From Streptomyces sp. NP160 (GTDB lineage: Bacteria > Actinomycetota > Actinomycetes > Actinomycetales > Quadrisphaeraceae): a stretch of 64,000 nucleotides of DNA. Within the stretch, counting starts at the first letter, position 1. Every line of letters starts with the position of its first letter. The notes under the pieces were generated by a model. That model was not told where the DNA came from, made no database searches, and worked only from the letters and a program-made list of their open reading frames with translations. The stretch lies in the NCBI RefSeq assembly GCF_006335115.1, contig NZ_VDMJ01000004.1, forward strand, positions 1 to 64,000, given 5' to 3'. Made by a program: the position numbers and the translations under genes. This document shows, piece by piece, positions 62,103 through 64,000 of this stretch.

Positions 62103-62121
62103 TGAGGTGAGGCTAACCTAT
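62103..62121. promoter_or_regulatory. DtxR/IdeR-type iron box
   Basis: TGAGGTGAGGCTAACCTAT fits the actinobacterial iron-box consensus (TTAGGTTAGGCTAACCTAA) in 16 of 19 positions. It covers the ribosome site (GTGAGG) and reaches into the ATG of the lipoprotein gene, in the 96-bp divergent region to the permease genes. Fe2+-loaded DtxR/IdeR should repress here. Confidence 0.85.
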
Positions 62122-63226
62122 GCGCAACGAGCCCTCGGGCCGCCCGTCCGTCGTCCCCGCGTGGAGGCTGGGCGTCGCTGCCGCGGCGGCCGCCGCCCTG
62201 CTCGCCGGCTGCGGCGGGGGAGCCCTCAGCGGCTCGCAGGCCGGGGCGCCCGCAGCCGGGGCGTCCGACGCCGCCGCGTCGCCGTCGTCGTCCGTGCCGG
62301 ACAACGAGGCCGGCGCCACGGGGCAGCACGTCGTGTCGCGGACCATGGCCGACGGCATGGGGTCCACCCAGGCGGACGGCGTCTTCCCGCGCACGGTCGC
62401 CCACTACCTCGGCACCACCGAGGTGCCGGCGGCGCCGCAGCGCATCGCCGTGGTCTCCACCGGCCAGCTCGACGCGCTGCTCACCCTGGGGCACGTGCCG
62501 GTGGCCGCGACCGTGGCGGAGTCCAACGCCCTCGTGCCCGAGTACCTGGCGCAGGCGTTCACGCAGGACTCCGCTGCGCTCGGCGCCATGGCCAGCACCG
62601 GCACCCGCACCGAGCCCGACGTCGAGGCGATCGCCCAGGCCGGGCCCGATCTCATCCTCATCAACTCCACGCGCGGCAAGGACTACTACGCGGCGCTGTC
62701 CGCGATCGCGCCGACCGTGGTGACGCTCGGCAACGGCGTGAACTGGAAGAGCGACTTCCTGCTGCTCGCCGACGCGCTGGGGCAGGAGGGCGACGCGCAG
62801 GAGGTCCTCGACGGGCTCCACGCCGACGCCGACGCCTACGCCGTCGCCCTGCCCGCCGGGCAGCCGGCGCCGACGGTGTCGTTCCTGCAGTCCACCGGAG
62901 ACCGCACCCGGATCATGGGGCTGCCGTCCTTCACCGGCGGCGTCGCCGAGGACCTCGGCCTGGGGCGCCCGGCCTCGCAGCAGTTCGACGAGACCTCCCA
63001 GGACATCAGCGCCGAGCAGCTCGACCTCGCCGACGCCGACTGGGTCTTCTTCGCGGCCGCCGGCGACGGCGCGCAGCTCGTCCAGGGCTCGGCGCTGTGG
63101 CCCGGGCTGTCCGCGGTGCAGGCCGGGCACGCCGTGGAGGTGCCGCTGGAGCCCTTCTACCTCAACGCCGGCCCGACCGCTGCGCGCCTGGTGCAGGACA
63201 CCCTGACCACGACCGTGACCCCCTGA
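62120..63226 (+). CDS. iron-siderophore ABC transporter substrate-binding lipoprotein
   Basis: 368 residues. Lipobox LLAGCGGG after a hydrophobic stretch. The mature protein is a FepB/FecB-type (class III) binding protein: RIAVVSTGQLDALLTLGHVP, EPDVEAIAQAGPDLILINST and LDLADADWVFFAAAG are the two lobes. It catches ferric siderophore outside and delivers it to the FecCD pair. It has an unusual 50-residue Ala/Ser/Pro linker. Regulated by the overlapping iron box. Confidence 0.9.
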   Translation: MRNEPSGRPSVVPAWRLGVAAAAAAALLAGCGGGALSGSQAGAPAAGASDAAASPSSSVPDNEAGATGQHVVSRTMADGMGSTQADGVFPRTVAHYLGTTEVPAAPQRIAVVSTGQLDALLTLGHVPVAATVAESNALVPEYLAQAFTQDSAALGAMASTGTRTEPDVEAIAQAGPDLILINSTRGKDYYAALSAIAPTVVTLGNGVNWKSDFLLLADALGQEGDAQEVLDGLHADADAYAVALPAGQPAPTVSFLQSTGDRTRIMGLPSFTGGVAEDLGLGRPASQQFDETSQDISAEQLDLADADWVFFAAAGDGAQLVQGSALWPGLSAVQAGHAVEVPLEPFYLNAGPTAARLVQDTLTTTVTP

Positions 63227-63278: not shown

Positions 63279-64000
63279 TCAGCGGGCGCGCTGGGAGCTG
63301 CGGCCCCGGCTGCCGCCGCTCCTGCCGCGGTTCCCACCGGCGTGGCTCCGGTCCGCCCAGGCGCTGAAGGAGCGCAGCGAGCCCGAGCCGGGACGGCGCA
63401 GCCACGGCCACGGGTGCAGGGCGACGACGTCGAGCGCGGCCGAGCGCTTCTTCCACCCCGGCACGTACGTCCACGTGGTGGCCAGCCGTCGTCCTGACAG
63501 CTCTGCGACCGGGTCTGCGAGGTGCACCTCCAGCTCGCCCGAGGAGCCCAGCTCGGCCAGGGCCTCGGCGAGGAACACCAGCCGCTTGCCCGACAGCGCC
63601 AGCGCGGCGAGCAGCGGCTCGTCGAAGACGAACACCGCGGGCAGGTCGGGGTGGGCGGCCAGGGCCGGGTCGTCGGTGCCGAGGGACTCCGCGGTCAGCC
63701 ACACGGCCTCCGGCTCACCGGTCAGCAGCGGCTCGGTGGGCCCGCCGTCGGTGGGGCCGCCGCCCAGGTCCGCCGGTCCGTCGACCTTCGCGCCCGACTG
63801 CGCCTCGGGCCAGTCCTGCACCGGGCAGGCGTCGCGCAGCGCGCAGCGGGCGCACAGCTGCGGCGCGCGCTTCTCCACCTGCCAGCGGCTGAAGCCGTAG
63901 ACCTTGCCGGTCCCCATCCCCGCGGCCCACTGCCAGCCGACGCGGTTGGCGGCGCGGGAGCCGTCGAGGAGGTTGCGGTACATCCGCTGCTCGCCCTCGC
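63279..64000 (-). CDS. photolyase/cryptochrome-like protein with apparently swapped domains, N-terminus outside window
   Basis: Open from the right window edge; a Met at 63983 is not the real start, since the frame continues upstream as EGEQRM. First part: RNLLDGSRAANRVGWQWAAG, the last FAD-binding helix pattern of DNA photolyases, followed by the cysteine set LCARCALRDACPVQDWP (C-x2-C, C-x5-C). After a Gly/Asp linker comes VWLTAESLGTDDPALAAH, PAVFVFDEPLLAALALSGKR, LVFLAEALAEL and ELEVHLADPVAEL, which resembles the alpha/beta antenna domain that normally stands at the N-terminus. Tail basic, Gly/Ser/Arg-rich. Confidence 0.55.
   Translation of the reverse strand, partial: EGEQRMYRNLLDGSRAANRVGWQWAAGMGTGKVYGFSRWQVEKRAPQLCARCALRDACPVQDWPEAQSGAKVDGPADLGGGPTDGGPTEPLLTGEPEAVWLTAESLGTDDPALAAHPDLPAVFVFDEPLLAALALSGKRLVFLAEALAELGSSGELEVHLADPVAELSGRRLATTWTYVPGWKKRSAALDVVALHPWPWLRRPGSGSLRSFSAWADRSHAGGNRGRSGGSRGRSSQRAR

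Follow-up and report, generated by a model that had tools for sequence, protein, structure and literature searches.

The last gene of the window, as the first 64,000 nucleotides of contig NZ_VDMJ01000004.1 of Streptomyces sp. NP160 (contig C121, bases 1–64000) are called here, raises the question of whether a photolyase can carry its two domains in reverse order and, if so, what kind of enzyme results. In this gene, the part that binds flavin adenine dinucleotide (FAD) comes first and a part resembling the alpha/beta antenna domain comes second. This inverted order is real and conserved. The protein is most probably (probability about 0.87) an inverted cyclobutane pyrimidine dimer (CPD) photolyase with an iron–sulphur (Fe–S) cluster, belonging to the class called NewPHL or short photolyase-like (SPL).

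Reading frame and domain order

The open frame 63279–63998 (minus strand) leaves the window and extends upstream in the assembly. The sequence-only reading had pointed to the stretch to the right of position 64000; the frame does continue there, the whole gene can be read from the assembly and the FAD domain begins in that part. The predicted start is a GTG at contig base 64571, the first codon fitting the family start M-x-L-P-x-P-P, and the length of about 430 residues follows from this start, taken from the homologues. Cysteine positions in the 430-residue protein are those of the 439-residue translation minus 9. The parts of the gene are as follows.

Contig 63279–64571, minus strand: inverted photolyase gene, about 430 amino acids, crossing the window edge; the part within the window is 63279–64000.
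63858–64000, minus strand: last segment of the FAD-binding domain (E-G-E-Q ... A-A-N-R-V-G-W-Q-W), PF03441, with PDB matches to CPD photolyases.
63822–63857, minus strand: L-C-A-R-C-A-L-R-D-A-C-P with C240, C243 and C249 (430-residue numbering), in 53 of 53 homologues.
Contig 64104–64106, minus strand, beyond the window: fourth cysteine, C156 (430-residue numbering).
63711–63821, minus strand: linker of low conservation, 37–52 residues in the 53 homologues, joining the FAD and alpha/beta domains.
63357–63710, minus strand: C-terminal alpha/beta domain, a homologue of the N-terminal (antenna) domain of photolyases.

Related genes were found at 59 loci, mostly of Actinomycetota by title. Complete frames are present in 53 of them and make up the alignments used below, from which six loci that run off a contig (L011, L043, L055) or have broken frames (L051, L056, L062) were excluded; the window protein itself stands outside these alignments. 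The closest named relative is that of Quadrisphaera sp. INWT6, whose best segment is 81% identical to the window protein. The homologue of Rhodococcus fascians NBRC 12155 (L060) is 61% identical and provides the residue numbering for the family.

FAD_binding_7 (PF03441) is the sole Pfam match in the window protein at E ≤ 10 (E = 6.8e-12); at this threshold PF04244 (DPRP) has no match. Pfam and NCBIfam scans of this single protein show nothing beyond the FAD domain, and the homology of the C-terminal domain has therefore to be sought with profiles. In a phmmer search against the PDB, residues 46–230 of the 439-residue translation align with the FAD domain of a class I CPD photolyase (1tez, 9e-15); no DNA_photolyase domain lies ahead of the FAD domain, as it does in that enzyme.

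The order was scanned with hidden Markov models (HMMs) of the C-terminal domain, of the FAD domain and of 35 ordinary N-terminal domains (from 29 of 30 photolyase loci, L137 being excluded because its match lies against a contig end, and from six others) in all open frames of 94 loci, which include some copies of one gene. The FAD domain was found in 94 frames; the C-terminal domain follows it in 90 and precedes it in none. Of the remaining four, L056 and L062 are broken frames, L055 lies at the end of its contig and L103 is a split gene. All 53 complete homologues have the FAD domain first and the C-terminal domain second. The ordinary N-domain HMM matched 78 frames, each time within the C-terminal domain, and an antenna domain upstream of the FAD domain, which would have spoken against the sequence-only reading, was found in none of the 94 loci scanned. 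In the window protein, the match of this HMM falls within the C-terminal domain (17.7 bits, E = 0.001 in that search), and the same holds for 46 of the 53 complete homologues. A photolyase FAD domain is indeed followed by an antenna-like domain, as had been read from the letters of the window.

Ancestry of the C-terminal domain

The C-terminal domain shares its ancestry with the N-terminal (antenna) domain of photolyases. An hhalign comparison of its profile with the 35 ordinary N-terminal domains gives 97.0% (P = 9.8e-11, score 66); with reversed query or target the value falls to 0.2%, and 40 column shuffles give 0.1–1.4%, with a best score of 17.8. In 296 genomes of Actinomycetota, where 14 candidates were scored per genome and the counts are thus lower bounds, the C-domain profile has matches in 23: 20 strong places (E ≤ 2e-45) and eight weak ones (1e-6 to 2e-4). 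By their coordinates, all eight weak matches fall in the N-terminal portion of frames that encode ordinary photolyases; a local HMM recovers six of them, and L084 and L085, below its reporting limit, rest on their coordinates. PF00875 is the only Pfam family that matches more than one of the 53 C-terminal domains (13 members); five other Pfam families and two NCBIfam families match one member each. Among PDB chains, nine of the ten matches of the C-domain profile are N-termini of photolyases or cryptochromes (E 0.2–0.5).

Predicted structures point the same way. For the full-length R. fascians homologue, both domains are modelled with confidence (predicted local distance difference test, pLDDT, 91.8; predicted template-modelling score, pTM, 0.92), and the C-terminal domain alone (pLDDT 84.6) is predicted to contain five strands and one short edge strand (E6–10, E29–33, E64–68, E80–83, E101–103). 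Using this model, Foldseek ranks photolyases and cryptochromes 1–7 (TM 0.50–0.58 by query length), and in VIA-align all 50 rows are photolyases or cryptochromes (Z 7.9–10.4), for example 1dnp (Z 10.4, root-mean-square deviation (rmsd) 3.7, 122 aligned). The VIA-align matches begin at the N-termini of the chains, and the last aligned helix lies within the FAD domain. A forced full-length alignment is not independent evidence. The diverged inverted forms found on Deinococcus plasmids have C-terminal domains that reach 99.3% to the actinobacterial one and 97.9% to ordinary N-terminal domains in hhalign; in the protein of Deinococcus AJ005, Pfam places PF03441 first and then PF00875 (E = 7e-4, below the family cut-off).

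Several results weigh against this ancestry. The window protein alone has no PF00875 match, and among its homologues the best per-member E value is 0.016; the profile reaches E = 0.2 at best against PDB chains, Foldseek finds nothing at E ≤ 0.001 (best 5e-3) and the ordinary N-domain HMM misses seven of the 53 homologues. The C-terminal domains of three alphaproteobacterial NewPHL-like proteins give 15% to ordinary N-terminal domains (P = 0.0018) and 0.7% to the actinobacterial domain, and those of two Persicobacter proteins 1.6% and 0.2%, respectively. An unrelated Rossmann-like domain with a mere resemblance to the antenna domain might be suspected from the Foldseek list, where rank 8 is an ornithine carbamoyltransferase and dehydrogenases follow lower. 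However, the weak matches in the 296 genomes fall only in photolyase N-terminal domains, P is about 1e-10 where reversed and shuffled controls fail, and PF00875 directly follows PF03441 in Deinococcus AJ005; we regard this explanation as very improbable. The alpha/beta region that the sequence-only reading had recognised behind the FAD part is thus borne out by profiles and predicted structures alike.

Descent from the antenna domain need not mean an antenna function. Ordinary N-terminal domains carry a DLR motif, [RKQ][DHG][DR]?LR in 32 of 35 and ADLR, SDLR or NDLR in the other three, whereas none of the 53 C-terminal domains has it and all 53 have T-x-[ED]-S-x-[GS] instead. With this motif lost, the domain has probably given up the usual mode of antenna binding and seals the FAD site instead of harvesting light. 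Its predicted role aside, the label ‘antenna’ would then denote ancestry only, since the motif typical of the antenna domain is gone. A C-terminal domain that seals the FAD site is reportedly described in the abstract of Emmerich et al. 2020.

Active site, cysteines and proposed reaction

E112, W115, N171, M175, N208, W189, W212 and W214 (R. fascians numbering) are invariant in all 53 homologues. By motif, we take their counterparts in the Escherichia coli photolyase to be E274, W277, N341, M345, N378 and W359/W382/W384. Of the six CPD-site residues of ordinary photolyases compared here, five are invariant in the usual form, and so are two residues of the tryptophan chain. Four cysteines, C155, C239, C242 and C248, are likewise invariant, so the cysteine set that had suggested a possible Fe–S cluster holds in all of these homologues. 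It is also complete in the three Deinococcus proteins. The two Persicobacter proteins lack the set, and the three NewPHL-like proteins lack the triad, one of them having the first cysteine.

The cysteines can be compared within the genome itself, which encodes an ordinary class I photolyase (C101:22982–24346) and a PhrB-type photolyase with PF04244 (C13:19645–21024). As in the latter, the first cysteine lies 12 residues ahead of the G-W turn; the triad reads C-x2-C-x5-C-P here and C-x2-C-x12-C-P in the PhrB type. Neither pattern occurs in 36 ordinary rows (one gene being counted twice). PhrB (FeS-BCP) photolyases, which combine PF04244 with the FAD domain, thus resemble the window protein in having four cysteines at matching places, as seen in the genome's own copy, but differ from it in their ordinary domain order, their DPRP antenna-domain family and 6-4 repair.

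The invariant CPD-site residues and cysteines make light-driven CPD repair with FAD and a [4Fe–4S] cluster likely. In the NewPHL/SPL class, such repair goes with a preference for single-stranded DNA. Reportedly, the abstract of Xu et al. 2021 describes an R. fascians SPL with FAD, an Fe–S cluster and CPD repair, which is not necessarily the homologue used here. In the proposed reaction, the N-terminal helical domain would bind FAD, and the conserved E, W, N and M residues would hold the dimer. Blue light would excite the reduced FAD (FADH−), an electron would pass to the CPD and the dimer would split; a short tryptophan chain (W212, W189) would reduce FAD. The four cysteines would bind [4Fe–4S] at places matching those of PhrB-type photolyases, and the alpha/beta domain would most likely pack on the FAD domain and close the FAD site rather than carry an antenna pigment. 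The cluster may aid stability, substrate binding and repair, by likeness to AfPhrB, whose Fe–S cluster is reported to have a role in all three (PMC9178010).

Some features fit less well with CPD repair by the usual site. The sixth residue is Q172 in all 53 homologues. Its place corresponds to what we take to be R342 in the numbering of ordinary CPD photolyases. A tryptophan near the third place of the chain (W149) is found in 44 of 53, so that the chain may be either a dyad or a triad; a dyad is reported for the D. shibae NewPHL (PMC8948257). Moreover, when the fold of the FAD domain is compared, the top matches, 7ykn and PhrB 5kcm, include 6-4 enzymes; the values for the 6-4 photolyase 7ykn are Z 16.2, rmsd 3.1 and 238 aligned. 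With a class I and a PhrB-type photolyase already available for repair, the protein might also be a cryptochrome-like light receptor and no repair enzyme. The CPD-site residues, conserved except for the glutamine, and the CPD repair reported for the NewPHL group (PMC13274461, PMC9426592, PMC8948257) speak against a receptor, which we consider improbable.

Relatives and origin of the inverted order

The sequence-only reading proposed a circular permutation or fusion. The inverted order is borne out but the arrangement is not new, being in print for NewPHL/SPL proteins and for Phr4/5 and Phr6; a literature search gave no paper title on circular permutation in photolyases. The topology of NewPHLs/SPLs is reported to be inverted (PMC13274461). 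Marine cyanobacteria (Synechococcus, Cyanobium) are reported to have inverted Phr4/5 and Phr6, with the FAD domain first and the photolyase domain second, a likeness drawn from their description; they are contrasted there with Phr7, which lacks the Fe–S cysteines (PMC9426592). SPLs are described as lacking the alpha/beta domain (PMC9649867, PMC9178010, PMC9498864) and as possible photolyase ancestors (PMC9498864). As described in the same three papers, they share with the window protein the lack of an N-terminal alpha/beta domain, a class I/III-like character and Fe–S in the group, but the window protein has an alpha/beta domain at its C-terminus.

In a FAD-domain tree of 62 rows, 17 SPL rows (16 of the 53 homologues and the window protein), three Deinococcus, two Persicobacter and three NewPHL-like proteins form one clade, with support of no more than 85/72. 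These 25 inverted rows stand apart from ordinary photolyases in the tree, which includes no named reference proteins. The three alphaproteobacterial proteins are called NewPHL-like by their layout, not by comparison with a named reference NewPHL; they share the inverted topology and the clade with the window protein but lack its cysteine triad, and homology of their C-terminal domain was not found by sequence.

A free-standing alpha/beta gene could instead have been fused behind a FAD gene, independently of the ordinary N-terminal copy and with no permutation. On a plasmid of Deinococcus sp. QL22 (L103:2396–3687), the FAD part and the alpha/beta part are two genes in this order with a 4-base overlap, resembling phr4/phr5 of marine Synechococcus, reported as separate open reading frames (PMC9426592); in none of the 94 loci scanned was a protein seen that has an alpha/beta copy at each end. 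However, later fission would explain such split genes just as well, and the FAD tree unites the 25 inverted proteins, if only at 85/72, with close Deinococcus and actinobacterial C-terminal domains (99.3%). One clade and close C-terminal domains would make a single event enough; it is not proven. The independent fusion is a tenable but less probable origin.

Among 39 relatives, 13 have the gene (from end to end in 12, and over positions 3–301 of 408 in G300): five of six in the genus, six of seven in the rest of the family and two of 26 in the rest of the order. In the phylum sample, at least 20 of the 296 genomes have it. Viral contigs gave 28 pattern matches and no relative; in phages, matches in eight records are limited to FAD-domain residues 25–226.

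Gene neighbourhoods vary. On two Persicobacter plasmids (L104, L107; from about position 2350), a NewPHL-like FAD gene is immediately followed by a DASH-like photolyase, the stop-to-stop frames overlapping by a few bases; the pair is possibly a two-photolyase operon. In two of the three alphaproteobacterial plasmid loci (L106, L108), the NewPHL-like gene adjoins an AarF/ABC1/UbiB kinase gene, which in L105 is the third gene downstream. The neighbours in Streptomyces sp. NP160 are as follows.

Contig 64652–65590 (L002:2256–3194), minus strand: GNAT-type acetyltransferase gene (PF13480), adjoining the photolyase gene on its upstream side and just outside the window.
Window 62120–63226, plus strand: periplasmic binding protein gene (PF01497), of the kind used for metal–siderophore or B12 uptake.

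The GNAT gene was ruled out as a conserved partner because a tblastn search (E ≤ 1e-4) of the available flanks of the 53 homologues, which reach up to 3 kb, gave no match to it. Permease-like frames were seen by eye on the other strand, before the PF01497 gene.

The locus offers a clean natural example of a light-driven repair enzyme with its domains swapped, seen in many Actinomycetota. The genome has cofG (C46:33428–34417), one of the FO/8-HDF (8-hydroxy-5-deazaflavin) genes; antenna binding by the moved domain is thus testable. The domain called missing in SPLs, as they are described in citing papers, is present here and only moved. Since actinobacterial and Deinococcus members carry the alpha/beta domain at the other end, we lean towards a common ancestor of SPLs and ordinary photolyases that had both domains, one inversion giving rise to the SPL class (or to the ordinary order). 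If this is true, the argument for SPLs as domain-less ancestors of the family would fall, and if the domain that moved was once the antenna domain, as the present evidence indicates, the published placing of short photolyases at the root, with nothing of the alpha/beta kind ahead of their FAD domain, needs revision.
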